The notes under the pieces are model-generated. The model saw nothing but the letters and a program-made list of their open reading frames with translations, was not told the DNA's origin and ran no database searches. Shown piece after piece: positions 1,024 through 22,493 of a stretch of DNA of 30,036 bases. Positions within the stretch are counted from its first letter, which is position 1; each line of letters starts with the position of its first letter. The position numbers and the translations under genes are program-made. This stretch comes from a virus: positions 1 to 30,036 of IMG/VR virus record IMGVR_UViG_3300028844_001002; one strand, given 5' to 3'.

Positions 1024-1647
1024 TTAGGCTATCTCGCTCTTATTCGCCTTAATAATTTCACTCATGTTTTTATGATGTAATGATTCAAAAGGAATATGAA
1101 TGTCTTGGTCTTCGGGAACGTATAAGAAATTAATCTCTGACTTGTTACAAGTATTAATTGCATCCTCAATAGTTTCAACTAATGGTTCACCACCTAAGTT
1201 AAATGAAGTGTTAAAGATAATTGGTACACCAGTCGCTTCATACATCTTCTCAATAAGGTCATAGTAGTTCTTGTTCTGTTCACGTGTAACAGTTTGAATT
1301 CTACATGTACCATCTGCATGTACTAGTGTTGGAATGTCTTTGTATGCTTTGTCTTTTGCTTTGATAGCGAATGACATCCATGGGGATTCCTGTAATTGCA
1401 ACATCTCAAAATACTCTTCAGCATGTTCTAACATGATGCTTCCAGCGAAAGGTCGATAGTACTCACGCCTCTTGACGTTGTTGACGATTTGTTTTGCTTC
1501 GGGATGTCTAGGGTCAAATAGAATAGACCTGTTGCCTAGAGCACGTGGGCCCCATTCTGATTCACCTTGGAAGATGGCGACAATTTGTGCCTTGTTGACT
1601 ATAAGGTCGATGACCTCATCTAAATCTCTAATAATTGCTGTCTTCAT
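1024..1647 (-). CDS. Carbamoyltransferase, C-terminal domain as a separate protein
   Basis: The 207 residues correspond to the Carbam_trans_C (YrdC-like) half of NodU/CmcH/TobZ enzymes. Visible motifs are FQGESEWGPRALGNRS (about 26-41), REYYRPFAGS (61-70) and FNTSFNLGGEPLVET near 145-160. In the family this half makes carbamoyl-adenylate from carbamoyl phosphate and ATP, and the Kae1-like half transfers the carbamoyl group to a hydroxyl. Here the two halves are separate genes. The start is clear: AGAGGA lies eight bases before the ATG, inside the last codons of the N-domain gene, and two bases separate that gene's stop from this ATG. The real acceptor substrate is unknown. Confidence 0.88.
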   Translation of the reverse strand: MKTAIIRDLDEVIDLIVNKAQIVAIFQGESEWGPRALGNRSILFDPRHPEAKQIVNNVKRREYYRPFAGSIMLEHAEEYFEMLQLQESPWMSFAIKAKDKAYKDIPTLVHADGTCRIQTVTREQNKNYYDLIEKMYEATGVPIIFNTSFNLGGEPLVETIEDAINTCNKSEINFLYVPEDQDIHIPFESLHHKNMSEIIKANKSEIA

Positions 1648-1649
1648 AA

Positions 1650-2933
1650 TTAATCCTCTATTACTGTTTCTAAATCGGAAGTAGCATCGCCCAATCCGTC
1701 ATTTGTTACTAATCCTAACTGCTCGTGTCTCAAGTGTTCTTCTAACCAAAGAGCAGCACCTGTTGCTGTACCACCATCATGTGGGATAGGGTCAACAAAG
1801 AATTGATAGTCGGGATACTTTTCTAAGTACTTGTAATTGTTTGTACAGTTTAAAGAATACCCACCACTTAACACTATGTTCTTACACTTTGGGAACATCT
1901 CTATTGCTTTGTCAATTAGTTTACATGACTCCGTAAACGAAGTCTGTTCAACTAGTTGTGCAACTGAATATTTGTTGTGTACGTTAAACGTAGCATCTGT
2001 TGGTGAGTAGGATGCCATACCCATAACTTTACCAGCAGCACGTCCTTCTTTATCTGTTCCAAGAGCGGCACTAATATTACTAAAGTTCATACCACTAGAT
2101 GGTTTAGATGTGAGAACATACTCTACTGCAGATGAATTGAAATTATCATCCTTCTTATTGATTGTCTTATCTTCTATAGTCCAAGTAGACTGTGACATCT
2201 CGTTTGGGAAATATTGTGTTTGCAAATCATCCATCATTCTAATGTTAGATAATTTCTGCCATTTAAGTTCACCCATTCTTGATGGGTCACTATAATAAAT
2301 TGATTCGATTTCTTGATAGCCTGGATATTCAGAATACAATGGTTGACCACCGCCGCCATCCCAAACTATAGTGATAGCACCTTTACCTTTGTCAAAGAAA
2401 GGTGAAAGAGCATATCCATTATATGCATGATATAGGTGATGATGTTCTCTTACAAAGTAACAAGCACGATTATCAATTTGATGTTTACGAATTTGGTCTA
2501 TGACATCATCATCTGCATTTTCGTTTTCATGTCTAAAGTCAATTGCTTTTTTACCCCACTTCTCTTGCAACTCTTCTAGACGTGATGTACCCAATGGGGA
2601 ATTTTGTAAGTCTTGCAAAAATTCTCTTGTCTTCAATCTATCTAATTGAATAGAGTGTTTGCCGGAAGGGTGTTTTGTATCGGGGGTGATTGTAACAGTA
2701 CACTGTCGTCTATCAAAAGAGGCGAATATAATTTCATCCCAGTCATGGACATCTCCAGCACGAACATCTATACTATCGTACAGACACGTCTCATCATTGT
2801 CGGGGTCGAAATCGGGACACCAGTACTTATCTCTGCGGTATCTTGCCTCATCAAACGAACCAGTTACCTTAGTCCCTTCCACGGTACCAACAGCGGCATC
2901 GTGTGAAATATTAATTCCAAGTATTTTTTTCAT
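1650..2933 (-). CDS. Carbamoyltransferase, N-terminal Kae1-like domain
   Basis: This 427-residue protein begins GINISHDAAV (His11) like NodU/TobZ enzymes. It has the metal-binding HHHLYHA motif (164-170), the ATP-loop WDGGGG (191-196), EGRAAGKVMGMASYSP (296-311), GGYSLNC (357-363) and HDGGTATGAA (385-394). It stops at the linker where single-chain family members continue into their C-terminal domain, which is the next gene. Together the two chains total 634 residues, close to a normal enzyme. An AGGA ribosome site precedes the ATG. Expected role: transfer of carbamoyl to a hydroxyl of a nucleoside, sugar or other small molecule; the substrate is not evident. Confidence 0.88.
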   Translation of the reverse strand: MKKILGINISHDAAVGTVEGTKVTGSFDEARYRRDKYWCPDFDPDNDETCLYDSIDVRAGDVHDWDEIIFASFDRRQCTVTITPDTKHPSGKHSIQLDRLKTREFLQDLQNSPLGTSRLEELQEKWGKKAIDFRHENENADDDVIDQIRKHQIDNRACYFVREHHHLYHAYNGYALSPFFDKGKGAITIVWDGGGGQPLYSEYPGYQEIESIYYSDPSRMGELKWQKLSNIRMMDDLQTQYFPNEMSQSTWTIEDKTINKKDDNFNSSAVEYVLTSKPSSGMNFSNISAALGTDKEGRAAGKVMGMASYSPTDATFNVHNKYSVAQLVEQTSFTESCKLIDKAIEMFPKCKNIVLSGGYSLNCTNNYKYLEKYPDYQFFVDPIPHDGGTATGAALWLEEHLRHEQLGLVTNDGLGDATSDLETVIED

Positions 2934-3554: not shown

Positions 3555-4322
3555 TTATCTCCAGTCTGGGCCAACACCCCATACTACTAGGGAACTACGT
3601 GAACCTCTAGTAACAGGTGTAACACAATGTCTAAGGAATGATGGGAAGAATATTACTGTTCCCTTTTGTCTCATTGCCTCTGCCATGTGTGGGTCTTCTG
3701 CCATACGAGCATCATCACCAACTAACAAGTCCCCACCTTCATATTCACTAGGGTCTGTTAACTGAATACTTGCACTCAGTTTGCGGTCATGACGTGTACC
3801 CATACCACCTAGGTATGAATCAATGTGCCAGTTATAGTGTTGGTCAGCACCACCTTCGACATAATCGTAACGAGTGTACTGTGGTACTTCAATGCTTTCC
3901 AAATCAAATCCAAAGGTATACATGTTTGTCATTTTCATTTGGTGTAACACTTCATTAAACATTTGATTAGAATAATCACATGATACATCCATCCAACCAG
4001 TTGTACAGTTTCTTATTTCTTCGTTGATACGTCCTTGGGGTTCGTCTCCTTGTTGGTATCCGACACTTCCTTGTCCGATTGATGGATGCTTCTCCATGTA
4101 CGAAACAAGTTCATCACACCACTCTGGCGAAAAAACATTATTAATGATTTCGATATCTCTAACTCTGGCGGGTGGTTGATTTGGTCTTTCTTCTTCTGCC
4201 ATTTGTCTAGTTGGCTCAACTTCATTAACAATCTTGGGTTCTTGATATTGTGTCGATTGCGGTTCTTCATTTTGGGAACCTCCAATAGATACAACGTTAG
4301 GGTTTGGTATATTAAATCTCAT
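3555..4322 (-). CDS. 2OG-Fe(II) oxygenase (prolyl-4-hydroxylase/PKHD type)
   Basis: This 255-residue protein has a low-complexity polar N-terminus (1-55), then the double-stranded beta-helix core. The iron ligands are visible as WHID (His166, Asp168) and LRHCVTP (His232), and the 2-oxoglutarate arginine is in RGSRSSLVVWGV (Arg242). TEY-like LTDPSEYEGGDLLV and GTVIFFPSFLRH are typical of the PKHD/P4H family. It should hydroxylate a protein or small molecule using O2 and 2-oxoglutarate; the target is unknown. Oxygenases of this type are common in pelagic T4-like phages. It is followed directly by the membrane gene cluster. Confidence 0.88.
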   Translation of the reverse strand: MRFNIPNPNVVSIGGSQNEEPQSTQYQEPKIVNEVEPTRQMAEEERPNQPPARVRDIEIINNVFSPEWCDELVSYMEKHPSIGQGSVGYQQGDEPQGRINEEIRNCTTGWMDVSCDYSNQMFNEVLHQMKMTNMYTFGFDLESIEVPQYTRYDYVEGGADQHYNWHIDSYLGGMGTRHDRKLSASIQLTDPSEYEGGDLLVGDDARMAEDPHMAEAMRQKGTVIFFPSFLRHCVTPVTRGSRSSLVVWGVGPDWR

Positions 4323-8564: not shown

Positions 8565-8795
8565 ATGAACAAAGAAACTCGAAGATATCACAAAGAAACC
8601 TTTACTACAGTCTTTACTGGTCTATTGATTAACTATCCTCTGAATCTAATCGGATTGTTTATCTGTATTGATGTTATAGGGATGACTTCTGCGTTTACTA
8701 TCGGCACAACCATTACTGCGTTCATGACCATAGTAGCGTATCTACGTGTCTTTACGATTAGACGTTACTTCGGGAAACGTCAACAAACCTCTTAG
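8565..8795 (+). CDS. Small two-span membrane protein (DUF7220-like)
   Basis: This is the only convincing plus-strand gene. The 76 residues form a short basic N-terminus (MNKETRRYHKET), two hydrophobic segments (TGLLINYPLNLIGLFICIDV, and TIGTTITAFMTIVAYLRVF) and a basic end (IRRYFGKRQQTS). The pattern of two spans followed by R-x-F-x-I-R-R-Y-F resembles the DUF7220 phage family; function is unknown. No usable ribosome site is seen (AAGG abuts the ATG), consistent with leaderless initiation. Its 3' end overlaps the convergent oxygenase-like gene by 38 bases, so antisense effects are possible. Confidence 0.7.
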   Translation: MNKETRRYHKETFTTVFTGLLINYPLNLIGLFICIDVIGMTSAFTIGTTITAFMTIVAYLRVFTIRRYFGKRQQTS

Positions 8796-9432
8796 TATTA
8801 CTGAATCCTTTCTCTATCGTATCCCATCCTTTGGTGTAATCTCTGAAATAGATATCCATGGCCAGCGAGTAGCGTGGTGTACGGTATACGTTGGTTTTGA
8901 CTTCGTGTCTGTGGTATGCACCTACTATGTGTAAGTCTCCCTTAATGTTTAACGTTTGTTTGGTATCTTCGTAATGAGTGTATGAGGGTTCTACTCCGTC
9001 TAGGAATATGTTGGTTGCGACCATTGGGACAAGTTGTGTTTTGGCTCGTTCCTGTGGTGTGGTATCTTTGTGAAAGTCGGATAGGGGTTCTTTGTCTTCT
9101 TCGTGGTGTTGGTGTGGAGTGATGTGTTCACCTTGTCTTAATATGTTACCCCAACATTGAAGTGTGAGATTGTTTATATCTTTGAATAGGTCTAACCCGA
9201 GCAGTCGTTGTGGTATATTCAACGGACGTATGTCGGGATGGGTTAACCAATTATAGACTACGTGTTGTTTTGTTAAAGGTGGGTAATTGGAATCGTTCCA
9301 TTCGGGATTGGGTAGTCTCAGTACGTCTCTTTCTGAACGTTTAAGTACCCTAGCAATGTGTTCGGATTCCTCTACAGAGAGGAACCCTTGCACGACATCG
9401 TGTGATGTATTAGTGTAGTTTACAGGAACCAC
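8758..9432 (-). CDS. Putative 2OG-Fe(II) oxygenase/cupin-like protein
   Basis: These 224 residues carry ITPHQHHEED (His107, His109), a strand NIFLDG, then GDLHIVGAYHRHEVKTN (His174/176) and TPRYSLAMDIYF (Arg187). That order, H-x-H, distal H, then R-x-S on a strand, fits a double-stranded beta-helix oxygenase but is more divergent than the others in this window. The start is a GTG at 9432 overlapping the upstream gene by 13 bases with no ribosome site, so translation is probably coupled. The 3' end runs convergently into the plus-strand gene. Confidence 0.5.
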   Translation of the reverse strand: MVPVNYTNTSHDVVQGFLSVEESEHIARVLKRSERDVLRLPNPEWNDSNYPPLTKQHVVYNWLTHPDIRPLNIPQRLLGLDLFKDINNLTLQCWGNILRQGEHITPHQHHEEDKEPLSDFHKDTTPQERAKTQLVPMVATNIFLDGVEPSYTHYEDTKQTLNIKGDLHIVGAYHRHEVKTNVYRTPRYSLAMDIYFRDYTKGWDTIEKGFSNTKRFVDVSRSNV

Positions 9433-10289
9433 AACAAAAGATACCAGTCATCTTTTGGATTCATATTGTTTTCTGTATTGTCGAGGTATAGGAATTTGAC
9501 CTGTTTTGTTACGTCCCTATACTCATGATTCCATTCGAGGAATGGTGCTTCTTCTTCACCACCATGTCCTGTCCATGCATCGGGGAAATAAGGTCTTACA
9601 CTGGTTTCCCACTGAGTGTTTAACTCATCGGTCTTTTCTTTATTCCCTACGTAATAAGGAGAGAATGCGCCTGGTTCTGTTGGTAACAATACTCCTTTGA
9701 AGTTTGTTGATAGGAACTCTGCGAATGATGTGGATTGTGCTGCGACTGGGTCTTCTTCAAATTTACGACAAAGATGCGAACAGTCACTACCATTGAATGA
9801 TACGTACCAGTCCTCATATCCTAATTCTTCTGTATTCCACCACTTAGTCACAAGTTGTAAAAACGGAAGCATGTCGTTCTTGATTTTCATACCAAGTTCC
9901 AAGTCCATATCGGGGATGAAGTCTAGTGCTTCTCTATGGTCACCAGCAGGTGGGAATCCAGCAATCACTCTAGTCTGACATAAATCAAGTGGGTGTAACA
10001 TTGCATCCCATAAAATGATTTTGTCATGTGAGTCGAATCCGTTACCCGTATCCATGAATTGCAACATATTGAATCGAACATCCGTGATGGACTCGTTCTC
10101 TACGTAATCAATGACTTTGATATCTTCATGCAATCCCGTAGCATCGTCCGTAAGACAATGAAGGTTGATGATTTGGTTTGGTGCGGTCATCGTAAAGATT
10201 CTCTTACGTGACATTTCGAGGTGTAATCTGTTGATATCCTCAGTTGTGCAAGAATCACCAATTTTTGAGGTGATAATTTGAATTGCCAT
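9420..10289 (-). CDS. Unknown protein (289 aa)
   Basis: I do not recognise this family. The start is good: AGGAG ten bases before the ATG (MAIQIITSKIGD). The protein is soluble and acidic with many Trp and Asp residues. Segments that could hold active-site residues are NLHCLTDDATGL (about 42-53), DSHDKIILWDAMLHPLDL (about 85-102) and FNGSDCSHLCRKF (about 163-175). The early strand-then-acidic pattern recalls glycosyltransferase-like folds, but that is only a hint. It is the first full gene after the palindromic promoter at 10345-10386, and is translationally coupled to the oxygenase-like gene downstream. Confidence 0.7.
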   Translation of the reverse strand: MAIQIITSKIGDSCTTEDINRLHLEMSRKRIFTMTAPNQIINLHCLTDDATGLHEDIKVIDYVENESITDVRFNMLQFMDTGNGFDSHDKIILWDAMLHPLDLCQTRVIAGFPPAGDHREALDFIPDMDLELGMKIKNDMLPFLQLVTKWWNTEELGYEDWYVSFNGSDCSHLCRKFEEDPVAAQSTSFAEFLSTNFKGVLLPTEPGAFSPYYVGNKEKTDELNTQWETSVRPYFPDAWTGHGGEEEAPFLEWNHEYRDVTKQVKFLYLDNTENNMNPKDDWYLLLWFL

Positions 10290-10321: not shown

Positions 10322-10351
10322 TTAGTTACCATTTATATATGGTAATCCCAT
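10322..10351 (-). CDS. Possible leaderless nine-residue leader peptide
   Basis: The ATG at 10351 lies exactly six bases after the -10, at predicted +1, and encodes MGLPYINGN then TAA. Its coding sequence forms most of the TTACCAT/ATGGTAA hairpin, so translating it would affect the fold, as in attenuators. It is too short to prove as a gene. Confidence 0.3.
   Translation of the reverse strand: MGLPYINGN
10326..10345 (-). other. Hairpin in the leader of the 289-aa gene
   Basis: Perfect seven-base arms TTACCAT / ATGGTAA around a six-base loop, just downstream of the promoter. It resembles the ATACCAT/ATGGTAT repeat at the 6805-6823 promoter and may be a regulator site of the same kind. Confidence 0.45.
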
Positions 10352-10386
10352 ATACCCATTATAATGGGCACATGGGATATCGTCAA
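10345..10386 (-). promoter_or_regulatory. Promoter with a nested palindrome over the -10
   Basis: Minus strand TTGACG (10381-10386), 17 bases, TATAAT (10358-10363). The -10 is the centre of the perfect palindrome CCCATTATAATGGG (10355-10368), itself flanked by ATCCCAT / ATGGGAT (10345-10351, 10372-10378). The 34-base symmetric block looks like an operator. It serves the 289-aa gene at 10289 and the genes downstream of it. Confidence 0.65.
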
Positions 10387-10390
10387 GTGG

Positions 10391-10504
10391 TTATTTAAAT
10401 GAATTCTCGATAACTCTATTGAGTGTACCGCATTTCATAAAATCATTAAATTTGTCTGCTTGTGTCCTAAGATACGAGGCAGACAATGATGCGTAATAAT
10501 GCAT
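10391..10504 (-). CDS. Small protein (37 aa)
   Basis: A strong AGGAG lies six bases before the ATG. The peptide reads MHYYASLSASYLRTQADK, then FNDFMKCGTLNRVIENSFK. It is amphipathic and helical, with no family recognised. It ends just before the promoter at 10345-10386 and is probably the last gene of the transcript from the tRNA-Ala region. Confidence 0.55.
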   Translation of the reverse strand: MHYYASLSASYLRTQADKFNDFMKCGTLNRVIENSFK

Positions 10505-10942: not shown

Positions 10943-11018
10943 TGGTGGAGCTAGAGGGAATCGAACCCACGACCTACTGGTTGCAAACCAGTCGCTCTCC
11001 CTACTGAGCTATAGCCCC
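10943..11018 (-). tRNA. tRNA-Ala (anticodon TGC)
   Basis: A 76-base cloverleaf. The acceptor is GGGGCTA/TAGCTCC (one G-T pair), the D-arm GCTC...GAGC, the anticodon stem ACTGG/CCAGT with loop TTTGCAA, and the T-loop TTCGATT with one T-T mismatch in its stem. Discriminator A and CCA are encoded. The first ten bases are shared with the 3' end of the PhyH-like gene, whose TAG stop lies at tRNA positions 8-10. Confidence 0.95.
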
Positions 11019-11647
11019 TTGTCGAAAATCCCATTGTAGAATGCATCCATCTTCATGGGTTTTTCGGTGTACACACATGCATATAGACCTCTTGGTTCAT
11101 CTGTCATGTTAGGTGTACTCTCGTGATATGTATCACCTTTGATGGCAACAATGTCTCCAGCATTAAACTTATAATTCAGTTCAGTGTCTTTGACTTGAAG
11201 TCCACCATTTCTAAAGTTCATGTCATCTAATATCCATGAACAGTTTACAGTATGTATTGCATTATTAGCATTACTCCCGTATTGATTATCGTAATGGGGT
11301 TCAAATGCGAAATCATCATCGATTCCCTTACCCATCTTATAGACCATTTGGTCATTGAACAGATGTGGTAAATCTGTTCCTAGTAGTGTGATTGCAATCT
11401 CTCTCATAAAAGGTGCCTTATAACATTTCTCTAGTTTCTGTTCGTACATCATAGCACATGCTATTCCGTCCCAGTGTACCTCTGGCCCATAATAACATGG
11501 TTTTCCTTTCATGTTATTGTCCAGCATCCATTGTCTGAGTGCAAGTCCTTCCTTACGTGCGATAGACAGCAAATCAGACGGTATAACAGAAGGTAGATGT
11601 ACCCACCCCCATTCGTTATAGTGTTTGAGTTGTTCCTTCGATATCAA
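11009..11647 (-). CDS. PhyH-type 2OG-Fe(II) dioxygenase
   Basis: These 212 residues show PhyH (phytanoyl-CoA dioxygenase) features: an N-terminal WGWVHLPSVIP start strand, the HxD iron site in FEPHYDNQYG (His118, Asp120), FNAGDIVAIKGDTYHES (His175) and EPRGLYACVYT (Arg186, 2-oxoglutarate). It should hydroxylate a small molecule or side chain, target unknown. It is one of a run of such enzymes. Its last codons AAG GGG CTA TAG are the 5' end of the downstream tRNA-Ala. Its first bases overlap the previous gene by four. Confidence 0.87.
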   Translation of the reverse strand: MISKEQLKHYNEWGWVHLPSVIPSDLLSIARKEGLALRQWMLDNNMKGKPCYYGPEVHWDGIACAMMYEQKLEKCYKAPFMREIAITLLGTDLPHLFNDQMVYKMGKGIDDDFAFEPHYDNQYGSNANNAIHTVNCSWILDDMNFRNGGLQVKDTELNYKFNAGDIVAIKGDTYHESTPNMTDEPRGLYACVYTEKPMKMDAFYNGIFDKGL

Positions 11648-11874: not shown

Positions 11875-12007
11875 TCCTTTTCTCCTCATGATATTTTAGA
11901 CTGCATTCTGCACCGCAAAACACATGTCTAGTGTCCATAGTGTGATACTTTATATCCTCATGATTGATGGATACTCCGCACACACTACATGGATACGTGT
12001 TAGTCAT
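11861..12007 (-). CDS. Tiny zinc-finger protein (48 aa)
   Basis: The frame encodes MTNTYPCSVCGVSINHED, then IKYHTMDTRHVFCGAECSLKYH. Four cysteines in C-x2-C and C-x3-C pairs (Cys7, Cys10, Cys31, Cys35) form a treble-clef-like zinc site. Its ATG overlaps the last codons of the upstream oxygenase gene (AATGACTAA), and its end overlaps the next gene by 14 bases. No ribosome site is visible, so translation is probably coupled. The role may be structural or regulatory. Confidence 0.65.
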   Translation of the reverse strand: MTNTYPCSVCGVSINHEDIKYHTMDTRHVFCGAECSLKYHEEKRNATS

Positions 12008-12749
12008 TTATAATGACGCTATTAAATTTCTTTCTACCCTCTTGTTCTGTAGTAGAATCTTCCTCTAACCGAGCAATACGGTCTTCATTTGTCTCAGGCA
12101 GTCTATCGGAATCTTCATCCATACTGACATATCCTGTTGGCATTTCTGTTCCACCATGTTCTGCTTGTTGTTCGGGATTAGTGAACCACACACATAATGA
12201 GAATCTCTCACCCATAATAACAGGGTTAACACCATGGAATCTATTCACACAATTATTGAACACAATCATACTACCAGTATATGGTTTGATGACGTGGTCG
12301 TCAATCATGAAATCACCACCTCTAAAGTCGTCATTCAATGGTACTACGAGGGTTGCTGTATCAGCACTATCTGCATCATCTTGATGCATCGGCATAGCAG
12401 TATTAGCAGGATAACCAATAATACTCATATATGTGATTTCATCTAAATCATGTGTAAGGGGTAGTAATGGTCTAATCACTTCCTCAACCATTTCGAAGTG
12501 TGGATTGCTCTCACCGATAGAATAGATATCCCTATTCATATGGTCAACATACTTCAGTCTATCGTTCTCTTCCTCATTAACACATTCAACTATGTTTTTG
12601 TTCGACTCAACTGGATATGTTATTTCTGTGTATTCTGCGAGTTCCCACATCTTGATGAACTCCTCACATATATCGGGGTCGATTACTCCATGTCCTATGT
12701 ATAGGAATGATGAGTTTAAATTTTGTGCTTCTACAAATTCTTCTGACAT
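12000..12749 (-). CDS. 2OG-Fe(II) oxygenase
   Basis: These 249 residues contain MPMHQDDADSADTATLVVPL (His122, Asp124), a RGGDFMID turn, TGSMIVFNN, FHGVNPV (His172) and GERFSLCVWF (Arg182). This is a complete H-x-D...H...R double-stranded beta-helix set. The long N-terminal half probably contains support helices, and the C-terminus is an acidic tail (DEDSDRLPETNEDRIARLEE). Substrate unknown. It is separated by 16 bases from the DUF6445 gene upstream. Confidence 0.85.
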   Translation of the reverse strand: MSEEFVEAQNLNSSFLYIGHGVIDPDICEEFIKMWELAEYTEITYPVESNKNIVECVNEEENDRLKYVDHMNRDIYSIGESNPHFEMVEEVIRPLLPLTHDLDEITYMSIIGYPANTAMPMHQDDADSADTATLVVPLNDDFRGGDFMIDDHVIKPYTGSMIVFNNCVNRFHGVNPVIMGERFSLCVWFTNPEQQAEHGGTEMPTGYVSMDEDSDRLPETNEDRIARLEEDSTTEQEGRKKFNSVIIND

Positions 12750-12765: not shown

Positions 12766-13464
12766 TTATCTGTTACTATTACGTGGGTGGAGAAATTGTA
12801 CTTGACTTATTCTCCATTTATCTCCAGTGTATTTAGTGTAGTCATCAATCCATGCTCCATGCAATCTATTGCCAGGGAACATGACACATCTATTGAACTT
12901 AGCAGGAATCATGTGTGCTACCTCAAATTGGTCTTCTACTGGGAATAGGAGACTATGTCTCTCATCGTTAGTAATCCACTCACCATTGTATACTGCAGTC
13001 CCACCACTTTCTTCTTTATCCATATACCATAACACATTGATGGTAGATGCTTCATCTGTTTGAGTCAATGGCGAATCAACGTGTGGGTAGTGTTGCATCT
13101 TATTATCAAAACACTCAATGGTTTGAAATATATTCCATTCGAATGCTTGTGCAGTTTCGTATCCTTTTTTCCACCATACATTACCACATATTTGACTGAG
13201 TCTTTCTATGTTCATCTCCCACATTCTTGTTGGATGTGAGATTGCTAGTGTGTTTCTACAATCATTGTACACTTTACCATTAAGTGTTTCTATCTCTTCA
13301 CTGTATTTCCATAGAGGATAGTCCGCATTTGTCAACCAATCATAGATTGTATCGGGGTCTTCGTAAAAATCATCAATTGTGATGACTTGGTTTTCTTTAT
13401 CGTATTGAACGTTCCATTGTGGCGATGGACGAAACATCTTATCTATTGAGAACGGTTGTCCCAT
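12766..13464 (-). CDS. DUF6445-type oxygenase-like protein
   Basis: These 232 residues show QHYPHVDSPL (His128, Asp130), INVLWYMDKEESGGTAVY, RCVMFPGNRLHGAWID (His202) and GDKWRISQVQF (Arg218). The layout matches the DUF6445 group, which has the 2OG-Fe(II) fold and active-site residues, but its reactions are mostly uncharacterised. The start overlaps the end of the next oxygenase by 22 bases, so the two are translated together. Confidence 0.78.
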   Translation of the reverse strand: MGQPFSIDKMFRPSPQWNVQYDKENQVITIDDFYEDPDTIYDWLTNADYPLWKYSEEIETLNGKVYNDCRNTLAISHPTRMWEMNIERLSQICGNVWWKKGYETAQAFEWNIFQTIECFDNKMQHYPHVDSPLTQTDEASTINVLWYMDKEESGGTAVYNGEWITNDERHSLLFPVEDQFEVAHMIPAKFNRCVMFPGNRLHGAWIDDYTKYTGDKWRISQVQFLHPRNSNR

Positions 13465-14222
13465 GGGTCTTCCTCCTTATGTACTGTGCTATAGTGAAAT
13501 TGGTCACCAAGTTCCTTGCATTCCAAATTCTCTCTAGCGTGGTCTAAATTAAATGAGATAGAAATCCTCTCATAATCATCGGGCAATTCATTAAAATCTG
13601 TGATGGGTGGTACTGAATGGAACATTGCTGAGGGCCACATCAAAAACTCACCACATTGTGGGTGAAACATTAATTCAGATTCATGCATCCCACTACCAAT
13701 AATACATGTGTTTTGTGGCATGTAATTTTTTGGGGGGGATGGGTTTGCAACTGTTTGTAATCCAAAATCCATCATTGCATTTGGTGATACAAATTTGATT
13801 GGTTGTGAGTCACTATCCGTCTTAACATAGTAAGTACCACTCACATATGAGTTGACATGGTTATGCATTTCATGGTGATGTGCTTTATTGTAGACGTTGA
13901 CCCAACAGAAGAAATGCACATCATGTCTTGACAAATGTGCCACTCTACATCCGTATGTGGCATTTATATAATCGATGTATGTGTCTTTAAGTTTGTTTGT
14001 CATGTCTATAAACCACGACTCTTTTTGCATCTCTTCACGGATATCACCATCAAAGTATGTGGTGTAATCCATTGCAGTATTCCCCTTACGTCTTCTCTTG
14101 ACCTTAGCGACTGCTCTTCTACACGATTCTGCTACCTTGTGGTGGTCTGCTTCCAATTCTCCATGCAACATGTAGATTGGAAAGACTGGGAAGATTGATG
14201 CCTTTTGGGGTTGATGGGTCAC
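13443..14222 (-). CDS. 2OG-Fe(II) oxygenase, TIGR02466/2OG-FeII_Oxy_5 type
   Basis: These 259 residues contain WVNVYNKAHHHEMHNHVNSY then VSGTYYVK (His120 and His122 region), and GEFLMWPSAMFHSVPP (His202) with ERISISFNLD (Arg219). The W-x-N...H-x-H...SG-x-YYV layout is that of TIGR02466 (PF13759) proteins, a phage- and marine-bacteria-rich oxygenase family. A basic N-terminal helix (AVAKVKRRRKG) could bind nucleic acid. Four bases overlap the spanin-like lipoprotein gene upstream. Confidence 0.82.
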   Translation of the reverse strand: MTHQPQKASIFPVFPIYMLHGELEADHHKVAESCRRAVAKVKRRRKGNTAMDYTTYFDGDIREEMQKESWFIDMTNKLKDTYIDYINATYGCRVAHLSRHDVHFFCWVNVYNKAHHHEMHNHVNSYVSGTYYVKTDSDSQPIKFVSPNAMMDFGLQTVANPSPPKNYMPQNTCIIGSGMHESELMFHPQCGEFLMWPSAMFHSVPPITDFNELPDDYERISISFNLDHARENLECKELGDQFHYSTVHKEEDPWDNRSQ

Positions 14223-19155: not shown

Positions 19156-21418
19156 CATCTCCCTCATAATTGGTTTGTTGCAATGGTTCGTCTGTGACAA
19201 CGTCTTCAGTCTTACCATCCATAGTGTTTTGATAATAGGATGTCTTCCAACCATACTTATATGTGGTTAGAAAATCCCTCGCCATTACTGATACAGGAAC
19301 CTCATTGTTAGGATAGTTTTCGGGGTTGTATGACCAGTTACCACTAATACCTTGGTCAAAGAACTTCTGCATCACTGCTACGATATTTATATATCCAGTG
19401 TTATCTGGCATATCCCATAGTAATGTGTAAGAATTCTTCAAGTGTGTGTATTGTGGTACCACTTGTTTCAATGTACCCTTTTTACTCTTCTTAACACTCA
19501 GATAATCTCTAGGTGGTTCTACACCATTTGTTGCATTTGATACAACACTTGATGATTCACTTGGCATCTGTGCAGTTAGTGTAGAGTGTCTAAGACCATA
19601 TTCTTTGATGTCACCCCTCAGTGTTTCCCAATCATGGTTTAACACATGTGGTGTCAATTCATCAACTTCCTTTTTGTAAGTGTCGATGGGTAAAATACCA
19701 TCTGAATACTTTGTCCCACCAAAACCTAAACAAGCACCTTTCTCTTTTGCAATAGTGTTGGATGCTTTGAGTAAATAGTATTGGAATGACTCTGTAAGTT
19801 CATGTACCAATTTAAGTGCATCGGGGTCGCCATACTTGACTTTGTTCTTCGCTAGGAAGTGTGCAAGTCCAATATAACCAATCCCCAATGACCTACGGGC
19901 GATAGTAGATGCTCGAGCTGCTTCTACTGGATACTCTTGGTGGTCTATCAGTTCTTCAAGTCCTCTCACTGCGAGGTCACACAAGTTCTCCATTTCGTCC
20001 GCTTTTACTATTCCCACATTAATAGCACTCAGTATACACAATGCGATTTCACCCTTACCATCAATATGTTGGATTGGGTCTGTCGGTAGTGTAATCTCTT
20101 GACATAAGTTACTCATGTTAACTTTGTCTTTAAAACTACTGTGTGTATTGCAGTGGTCTATATTCATAATATAGATTCTACCAGTCTCTGCTCTTTCTTT
20201 TAGCAAATCGGTAATTAGTTCCCTTGCACTCACTTTAATCTTTGGGACGGATGTAGCACGTTCGTATTTCTCATAGAGTTCATCGAACTCGGGTGTTCCG
20301 AATGCTTCATAGAGCCCAGGAGCTTCGTGGGGTGAGAACAATGTGATGTCGTCATTCTTTAAAAATCTCTTATAGAATAACTCTGATAACTGAATAGAAT
20401 AATCTAACTTTCTGACTCTGTTATCTTCTGTACCTTTGTTGTTCTTGAGTACAAGAATGTCTTGTATCTCTTGGTGCCAGATAGGGAAATGAACTGTTGC
20501 ACTTCCTCCCCTTACTCCGTTTTGGGTGCAACATCTAACAGTTGATTCAAATTTTTTAAGGAATGGGATGACGCCCGTATGCTGGACTTCGCCTCCTCTA
20601 ATCCTTGAACCAATTCCTCTAATTCTTCCGGCGTTAATACCGATTCCGGCACGTTGAGCAACATATTTTCCAATGGCCATATCACTTGAGAAGATACTGT
20701 CGAGAGTGTCGTCTGTGTCGACAAGCACACACGAAGCAAATTGTCGTAAAGGAGTTCTAACTCCTGCCATGATAGGGGTTGGGATGTTGATTTTGAATGT
20801 TGAGATTGCATCGTAGTATTTTTTGACATAGTCTAACCTTTTGTCTTTATCATAGTTTTGGAACAGTGTCATGGATATTAACATATACATGAACTGTGGG
20901 GTTTCATAGACCAAATTTGCTGACCTATCTTGTACCAAATACTTGTCCACTATTTGTTGTAGACCAGCATAGGTAAAGTCTGTATCTCTTCCATGTTTAA
21001 TGAAAGAATCAATCCTGTTAATTTCTTCAGTAGAATATGAATTGATGATAGCATCATCATACACACCGAAGTCTATATTTCTATGTATGATTTCACCCAG
21101 TGGTGGATATATCTCTGAATCTTTCCACTTGGTATTGAACACTTGTTTTTGAATTGCAAATAGTAGTAATCTAGCTGCAACAAATTGATAATTGGGGTTC
21201 TCTAGTGTAATTAAGTCACTTGCACTTTTCACTAGAATCTTTTGAATTTCTTTTGTGGTGATACCATCAAAAAACTGAAGTCCACTATTCATTTCAACCA
21301 ATGATTCTGACACACCTGTAATTCCTCTGCATGATTTTTCTACCATACGATGAATCTTGTCTAGGTTGATGTCCGATTTCGAACCATCTGATTTTAATAC
21401 TTTAATCATAGCATTCAT
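19127..21418 (-). CDS. nrdA: Class Ia ribonucleotide reductase large subunit
   Basis: This 763-residue protein is full length. It has an N-terminal ATP-cone (about 1-90, IKVLKSDGSKSDINLDKIHRM), the catalytic barrel with SNLCQEITLPT and GEIALCILSAINV, and PSESSSVVSNATNGVEP. The C-terminus is EDCEACAI, the swinging cysteine pair that re-reduces the active site. It converts NDPs to dNDPs. The start overlaps the primase stop (ATGA). It is followed by the 2OG-like gene, nrdB and glutaredoxin, a complete dNTP-synthesis operon. Confidence 0.95.
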   Translation of the reverse strand: MNAMIKVLKSDGSKSDINLDKIHRMVEKSCRGITGVSESLVEMNSGLQFFDGITTKEIQKILVKSASDLITLENPNYQFVAARLLLFAIQKQVFNTKWKDSEIYPPLGEIIHRNIDFGVYDDAIINSYSTEEINRIDSFIKHGRDTDFTYAGLQQIVDKYLVQDRSANLVYETPQFMYMLISMTLFQNYDKDKRLDYVKKYYDAISTFKINIPTPIMAGVRTPLRQFASCVLVDTDDTLDSIFSSDMAIGKYVAQRAGIGINAGRIRGIGSRIRGGEVQHTGVIPFLKKFESTVRCCTQNGVRGGSATVHFPIWHQEIQDILVLKNNKGTEDNRVRKLDYSIQLSELFYKRFLKNDDITLFSPHEAPGLYEAFGTPEFDELYEKYERATSVPKIKVSARELITDLLKERAETGRIYIMNIDHCNTHSSFKDKVNMSNLCQEITLPTDPIQHIDGKGEIALCILSAINVGIVKADEMENLCDLAVRGLEELIDHQEYPVEAARASTIARRSLGIGYIGLAHFLAKNKVKYGDPDALKLVHELTESFQYYLLKASNTIAKEKGACLGFGGTKYSDGILPIDTYKKEVDELTPHVLNHDWETLRGDIKEYGLRHSTLTAQMPSESSSVVSNATNGVEPPRDYLSVKKSKKGTLKQVVPQYTHLKNSYTLLWDMPDNTGYINIVAVMQKFFDQGISGNWSYNPENYPNNEVPVSVMARDFLTTYKYGWKTSYYQNTMDGKTEDVVTDEPLQQTNYEGDDEDCEACAI

Positions 21419-22458
21419 ATTCTCTTGTACTCCTTTAGTTTCAGTTTTGCAGTGAGACCTTCGGTTGTACAGTTATCTATAATTGACACAATGTCTTCGC
21501 TTGTCATTCCACTCATTATCATATTGTTTATATCTTTCAATCCTTCTACTCTCTTATCATTCCAAATACACACACGGTAACCTTCATCGATTACCTCATC
21601 AATTTTCTTTAGAATTTCTTTGTTTCGTGGTTCATTGTCATAAATTATTATTGCATTGTCTTTTATAGCATTGTCGATTTTTTTAAAGTCACTACCACCG
21701 ACAGCAATACTGTTTGGTAGGAATAAACTGTCTAGTGGCCCTTCTGTAACATAGATAGTTTTAGTCATATTCACTTTATCAATGTTGAAGATGAGTGAAT
21801 CGTCATCTCGGAATCTCATTGTTAGATATCTTAATGGTGAGTCATCGATTGCTCTCCCACTAACACCAACAAGTTCCCCATTCTTGATGAATGGCAATAC
21901 AATTCTAGGATTGTTTCCTAGAGGTCTGTCTTTGTATTTATCTGACAAGAACGATAGACTTTGTGCAGAATCAACAAACCACAACTCTTTTTGTGACTCT
22001 ACTGGAATTTTTCTGTTGTCTAGGTACTCCCTTGCGACTTTACTTTCAATCGCTGGTTTCGCTATAAACTTCAAATTCTCAATGGTCATTTTTGTTGCAT
22101 CTGTATTTAGACTTTCAGTAGTCTTGGGTTTAAACTTGAATGCATTCGATGATGGCATTCTTTGATTGGTATTCTTCTTACCATGTTTCTCTTGTAGAAG
22201 TTCTTTAACATACTCCTTGTATTGTACAGGAAAATGGTCTTTCAAAAACGTCATTGATGATGTGGATTTACCACAGTTATGACACTTATATATGAATGAT
22301 TGGTCGACTAAAAAATGATATGCTCGTGCTTTGTAGCGATTCTTTTGGGAATCACCACAATAAAGACATCTGTGATTTAATGTACTGTCTCCCTTCCATT
22401 TACAAACCTCAAGATGAGGTGTAACTGTAGAGAGGTACTTTCGCTCTAACCATAACAT
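21415..22458 (-). CDS. DNA primase (T4 gp61-like)
   Basis: These 347 residues have an N-terminal zinc-binding domain (CLYCGDS, Cys31/Cys34; YKCHNCG, Cys59/Cys62) and a TOPRIM core (YVTEGPLDSLFLPNSIAVGG, then IIIYDNEPRNKEI). This is the T4 gp61 layout: it makes RNA primers at the fork with a helicase partner outside the window. The ATG lies exactly at the +1 of the promoter 22465-22493 and no ribosome site precedes it, so the primase is probably made from a leaderless mRNA. The stop overlaps the nrdA start. Confidence 0.9.
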   Translation of the reverse strand: MLWLERKYLSTVTPHLEVCKWKGDSTLNHRCLYCGDSQKNRYKARAYHFLVDQSFIYKCHNCGKSTSSMTFLKDHFPVQYKEYVKELLQEKHGKKNTNQRMPSSNAFKFKPKTTESLNTDATKMTIENLKFIAKPAIESKVAREYLDNRKIPVESQKELWFVDSAQSLSFLSDKYKDRPLGNNPRIVLPFIKNGELVGVSGRAIDDSPLRYLTMRFRDDDSLIFNIDKVNMTKTIYVTEGPLDSLFLPNSIAVGGSDFKKIDNAIKDNAIIIYDNEPRNKEILKKIDEVIDEGYRVCIWNDKRVEGLKDINNMIMSGMTSEDIVSIIDNCTTEGLTAKLKLKEYKRI

Positions 22459-22464
22459 ACACTC

Positions 22465-22493
22465 AGTATATCACTGAATGCATGTTATTTCAA
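22465..22493 (-). promoter_or_regulatory. Promoter of the primase-nrdA-nrdB operon
   Basis: Minus strand TTGAAA (22488-22493), 17 bases, TATACT (22465-22470), ATG six bases further. The -10 lies in TCAGT-GATAT-ACTGA, a small inverted repeat that could be an operator. Confidence 0.7.

Follow-up and report, generated by a model that had tools for sequence, protein, structure and literature searches.

A sigma70 promoter at the apex of a putative read-through-silencing hairpin in marine T4-like phages

Why would a phage carry the -10 box of a near-consensus promoter at the very centre of a palindrome? The locus that raises this question lies in a 30,036-nt stretch of viral DNA (the window), a 30-kb contig from an uncultured marine T4-like phage in which almost every gene is on the minus strand. 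The window encodes nrdA/nrdB, a glutaredoxin, a gp61-type primase, many 2OG-Fe(II) oxygenases, and two tRNAs. Among named phages, the primase is most similar to those of Methylophilales phage Melnitz and of Synechococcus myophages (36-37% identity). Genes resembling 2OG-Fe(II) oxygenases are unusually dense (3555-4322, 11009-11647, 12000-12749, 12766-13464, 13443-14222, and 8758-9432; minus strand). Positions 689-1015 and 1024-2933 (minus strand) hold an IscA/ErpA-like Fe-S assembly protein and a NodU-type carbamoyltransferase, the latter apparently split over two ORFs.

The symmetric elements described at this locus in an earlier note are all present. CCCATTATAATGGG, a perfect palindrome containing TATAAT, occupies 10355-10368 and is bracketed by ATCCCAT (10345-10351) and ATGGGAT (10372-10378). 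The TATAAT at its centre (10358-10363, minus strand) is the -10 hexamer of a near-perfect sigma70-type promoter, TTGACG-N17-TATAAT, which matches the consensus at 11 of 12 positions and has its -35 hexamer, TTGACG, at 10381-10386 on the same strand. We refer to this locus as P1. Six nucleotides after the -10 box is the ATG of a nine-codon ORF, ATGGGATTACCATATATAAATGGTAACTAA (MGLPYINGN*; 10351-10322, minus strand), a leaderless geometry. As the note had stated, this ORF overlaps a second hairpin, TTACCAT/ATGGTAA (10345-10326, minus strand), which lies in the 5' end of transcripts started at this promoter. The first full-size gene after the promoter is orf289 (9420-10289, minus strand), which has the Shine-Dalgarno (SD) sequence AGGAG; its family is unassigned, and a tblastn search against a named-phage collection returned no match. 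In the same region, TATAAATG (10330-10337, minus strand) is a possible but weak candidate for a degenerate T4-type late promoter (7/8 match), and in one relative, L151, TATAAATA occurs just downstream of the hairpin. On the upstream side, the 37-aa ORF MHYYASLSASYLRTQADKFNDFMKCGTLNRVIENSFK* (10391-10504, minus strand), which has an SD of its own, has its stop codon just before the -35 hexamer, so that its mRNA must enter the hairpin unless it is processed or terminated. Near the start of this ORF, the ~36-nt stretch ATTACGCATCATTGTCTGCCTCGTATCTTAGGACAC is identical in three relatives (L150, L152, and L153), synonymous sites included, even though the neighbouring orf289 proteins share just 28-59% identity, and an additional nucleic-acid signal may lie there.

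From the symmetry, the earlier note had proposed a repressor combined with an attenuation-like device. The promoter and the idea of control by an RNA structure are upheld by our analysis, but neither the repressor nor attenuation in the form proposed is. In minus-strand RNA, the nested palindromes are a single uninterrupted 15-bp stem (left arm 10378-10364, right arm 10359-10345) closed by a UAUA loop (10363-10360), because the gtg/tat gap between them pairs as G·U, U-A, and G·U. The predicted folding energy, computed like all others here for 37°C, is -23.6 kcal/mol (z = -5.5) versus -17.1 kcal/mol for the plus-strand version. Palindromes with at least 15 of 17 complementary arm positions number one in the window, against 0.017 expected per dinucleotide-shuffled window, and no further copy of this palindrome is found within the window. 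Rfam covariance models matched nothing in the window except the two tRNAs, and the palindrome element corresponds to no known Rfam family.

We consider it likely that P1 is a sigma70 promoter with its -10 box placed at a hairpin's apex, and that read-through RNA folds and is silenced while locally started RNA stays open. RNA polymerase arriving from the co-directional genes upstream would copy both arms, and the resulting RNA would fold and bury the start codon 6 nt after the -10 box; in relatives with a U-tract, the hairpin would also serve as an intrinsic terminator. RNA from the local promoter would begin at or next to the start codon, without the left arm, and would be unstructured. The hairpin cannot form in this RNA, as the left arm lies upstream of the predicted start site. 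With read-through silenced, expression would depend on the local promoter. The computed probability that the AUG of the nine-codon ORF is unpaired is 0.00 in read-through RNA and 0.81 in local RNA. For the SD of orf289, it is 0.73 in both alike, so that this site is not buried at P1. In the window, the guarded start codon would open just the nine-codon ORF, and the present role of the P1 hairpin for orf289 is the weakest link of our reading. The same device may guard the primase gene in this phage, and DNA polymerase and other genes in its relatives.

At the primase, a hairpin with a 17-bp stem (P2; 22452-22488, minus strand) surrounds the -10 box TATACT (22470-22465) of the promoter TTGAAA-N17-TATACT, which is followed by N6-ATG (22465-22493, minus strand). 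The right arm contains the start codon of the T4 gp61-type DNA primase gene (21415-22458, minus strand; phrog_47, 4.7e-69), and the computed probability that its AUG is unpaired rises from 0.12 in read-through RNA to 0.67 in local RNA. P1 and P2 share the leaderless geometry, with an ATG at the predicted start site, 6 nt after the -10 box, and no SD. When 60,326 windows of 40 nt on the coding strand of a 120-kb relative, G001, are ranked by hairpin stability, P1 comes first and P2 second; the apex of each is occupied by a sigma70 -10 box. The P2 design is kept in all 12 loci fetched, where the only stem changes are swaps between G·U and Watson-Crick pairs. Among primase relatives down to 59% identity, a -10 box lies shortly before the ATG and mostly has a hairpin over it, with arms that differ. 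Across 28 distinct primase upstream regions, the arms paired with their own partners at -11.3 kcal/mol versus -6.4 kcal/mol when swapped, and none of 2,000 random pairings was as good, in a comparison that ignores relatedness.

The geometry extends to other genes. At 78 of 78 DNA polymerase loci, a -10 box lies 5-8 nt upstream of the ATG (N6 in all of the matches listed), and the hairpins there are smaller but co-varying (-9.4 kcal/mol for own arms versus -7.6 kcal/mol for swapped arms, with 0 of 2,000 random pairings as good, relatedness again being ignored). Further instances were found at orf378 (phrog_19197) in G013, with a folding energy of -24.7 kcal/mol, and at a phrog_455 gene and an SD-led gene in G014. 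Promoters that lie within an intrinsic terminator, with a stem around the -10 box and then U6-U7, were seen at G014 45283, at G007 61960, and in L150. The device is not obligatory, since some leaderless promoters of G001 (103843 and 86735) lack the hairpin. Promoters near distant homologs (40% identity) of the neighbouring PhyH-like gene are also without such a device. The primase start of Melnitz has the geometry TTGACA-N17-TATATT-N7-ATG and no comparable hairpin, and among the annotated starts in 100 kb of this phage, five have a -10 box near the ATG, none of them with a hairpin. Neither the promoter geometry nor the hairpin was found at the primase starts of metaG-MbCM1 and S-SZBM1. The device is absent from the three annotated cyanophage records examined, where the gene upstream of the polymerase overlaps or directly adjoins the polymerase start, so that no room is left for it.

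Two other promoter types of these phages also have an ATG close by. A second early-promoter class in the window (minus strand; 8099-8070, 8290-8261, 15926-15897, and 16557-16528) has a shared spacer, TTGACAATGGCC..CACTTTTT..TATAAT, with conservation that extends past the hexamers, and is often followed by N6-ATG. On the minus strand of G001 (L014-L020), 6 of 10 intergenic T4-type late promoters TATAAATA have an ATG at about +13, 5 nt past the motif, and a seventh has one at +16, which suggests that this phage makes leaderless late mRNAs as well. Late promoters of the form TATAAATA-N5-ATG are common and mostly lack hairpins.

It is possible that the P1 hairpin is simply a terminator or mRNA 3'-end structure of the upstream 37-aa ORF, and that its overlap with the promoter reflects compact packing. 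The hairpin begins 12 nt past the stop codon of that ORF, its stem is GC-based like that of an intrinsic terminator, and relatives of the G007 and L150 types have U6-U7 after the stem, giving an intrinsic terminator with a promoter in the loop. However, no U-tract directly follows the stem in the window or in its relatives L003 and L004, and the same geometry occurs without a U-tract at the buried start codons of primase and polymerase. Packing alone would also not put a -10 box, which is foreign to an ordinary intrinsic terminator, at the apex each time. We therefore regard this explanation as unlikely.

A repressor operator, in which a dimeric phage or host protein would bind the dyad over the -10 box and shut the promoter off, would account for a perfect dyad that covers this box and for the four CCCAT/ATGGG half-sites spaced 8 bp apart. 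The motif, however, is unique to P1 within the window, and the behaviour of the arms in relatives is not that of a binding site. Five contigs with a 98%-identical orf289 and one found by pattern resolve into three haplotypes, several contigs among the relatives being near-duplicates. In these close relatives, variation peaks in the palindrome core amid highly conserved flanking DNA, although TTGAC of the -35 hexamer is invariant in the alignment and TATAAT is invariant despite its replaced flanks. The L004 group has different inner arms and a 6-bp insertion that widens the spacing of the outer arms from 20 to 26 bp. The outer pair has changed from A-T to G-C on both sides, RNA folding is retained (-18.8 kcal/mol), and 12 nt separate the -10 box from the ATG, versus 6 nt in the window. 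At loci orthologous to P1, flanked like P1 by the 37-aa ORF on the upstream side and by a homolog of orf289 (28-59% identity) on the downstream side, the arms are unrelated in sequence. They nevertheless paired with their own partners at a mean of -21.1 kcal/mol versus -9.9 kcal/mol when swapped, and the true assignment was the best among 720 permutations, with relatedness ignored. The earlier note had looked to conservation of the arms in relatives; they are not conserved as sequence, having been replaced, but they are conserved as complementarity. As the half-sites are fixed neither in sequence nor in spacing, and as the arms differ at every other promoter and phage of this design, we find an operator very improbable.

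The symmetry itself is also RNA-like. Under an operator or a cruciform, G·T and A·C oppositions would be expected to be equally common; within the palindromes, we counted 21 G·U versus 3 A·C oppositions on the coding strand. At 31 of 34 loci that were not chosen by folding, coding-strand RNA was more stable than its complement (p = 2e-6). The mean strand difference was -0.3 kcal/mol in ordinary coding-strand windows and -1.0 kcal/mol in strongly folding ones. This strand bias points to selection on coding-strand RNA, and the selected molecule must then be read-through RNA, because locally started RNA is without the left arm. That the arms change and yet stay complementary, together with the coding-strand bias, speaks for a structure of the read-through transcript rather than for a cruciform or a repressor operator. 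A DNA hairpin of the non-template strand, or a cruciform, might instead tune promoter opening; it would be centred on the -10 box, and a coding-strand DNA hairpin would likewise give a strand bias. A cruciform, however, would be strand-symmetric, unlike our data, stems of up to 17 bp per arm far exceed a transcription bubble, and the right arms extend into coding sequence around the start codon, all of which leaves this explanation with very little probability. The conserved element, in our view, is the hairpin straddling the -10 box, and any action of it would be on read-through transcripts.

Translation of the nine-codon leader might control the overlapping hairpin and hence orf289, as the overlap and the retention of TTACCAT/ATGGTAA with two compensated pairs in L003 would allow, but such attenuation is the least credible explanation of all, given that the leader has 9 codons in the window, 5 (MGLPI) in L003 and L004, and 19 in G007, with differing residues, that the second hairpin is missing from the L004 group, that the main hairpin is impossible in local RNA, and that the local transcript has no terminator/antiterminator pair. 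Given the near-consensus sigma70 elements, we set aside the possibility of a hairpin promoter of the N4 type, used by a virion RNA polymerase. The leader itself probably has another origin. In L153, G014, and G011, a gene of 110-114 aa (MGFxNL..., phrog_27048-like; 110 aa in L153) starts at the post-promoter ATG and is directly followed by the orf289 homolog. The alignment of L153 with the window runs across the 37-aa ORF and the promoter as far as ATGGG and resumes at the orf289 ribosome-binding region. Because the leader is not conserved and other phages start a leaderless gene at that ATG, it is probably the deletion scar of a lost leaderless gene of this kind; insertion of the 110-114-aa gene in the other lineages would be a less simple alternative.

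The logic of silencing read-through transcripts has precedents. In the fold-back inhibition of IS10 and IS50 transposase, read-through transcripts hide the start and internal-promoter transcripts do not; these systems differ from P1 and P2 in using the inverted repeats of transposon ends and an SD-led gene. In T4, early transcripts of genes e, soc, 49, and I-TevI are silenced by a hairpin and an internal late promoter frees the start, with further occlusion hairpins of this kind at segB and at mobE of phage Aeh1 (PMC3014915, PMC2988022). In those hairpins, as here, the promoter lies in the 5' arm or loop, so that local RNA is without the 5' arm. There, the SD and/or AUG is hidden in long transcripts and exposed in local ones; in our phage, the predicted burial covers the AUG of the primase and of the nine-codon ORF, but not the SD of orf289. 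The T4 set uses late promoters (TATAAATA), whereas the embedded promoter here has sigma70 -35 and -10 elements with a 17-nt spacer. The T4 genes are SD-led lysis, capsid, and endonuclease genes, whereas here the starts have leaderless geometry, with the ATG 6 nt after the -10 box, and the targets are primase, DNA polymerase, and the heads of early operons. In Bacillus subtilis, a hairpin of 20 or more bp at sigG has been proposed to keep read-through mRNA from being translated, and here, too, the hairpin is impossible in RNA that starts at the gene's own promoter (PMC5942855). Unlike P1 and P2, sigG is a single bacterial sigma-factor gene with a ribosome-binding site and leader, not a recurring phage design. 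Our literature search on promoters within hairpins and on leaderless genes of T4-like phages, whose coverage was incomplete, yielded nothing beyond the T4 and sigG cases. What appears to be new is thus the combination of a sigma70 promoter, a leaderless start, and replication-gene targets.

Taken together, these observations lead us to favor, with moderate confidence, a view in which phages of this marine T4-like clade place the promoters of essential replication genes (DNA polymerase and primase), along with those of some early operons, in the apices of silencing hairpins. Such genes would have leaderless mRNAs and would be expressed from their own promoters only, and the hairpins would turn over rapidly in sequence while their structure is kept. 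Marine T4-like phages have been reported to be without identifiable middle promoters, as stated for Melnitz and cyanophages (PMC9004378), and a structure-based switch, if true, would be one answer to how the timing of their replication genes is set. Leaderless translation may also be widespread in these phages, and gene calling that relies on SD sequences would misplace or miss such starts.
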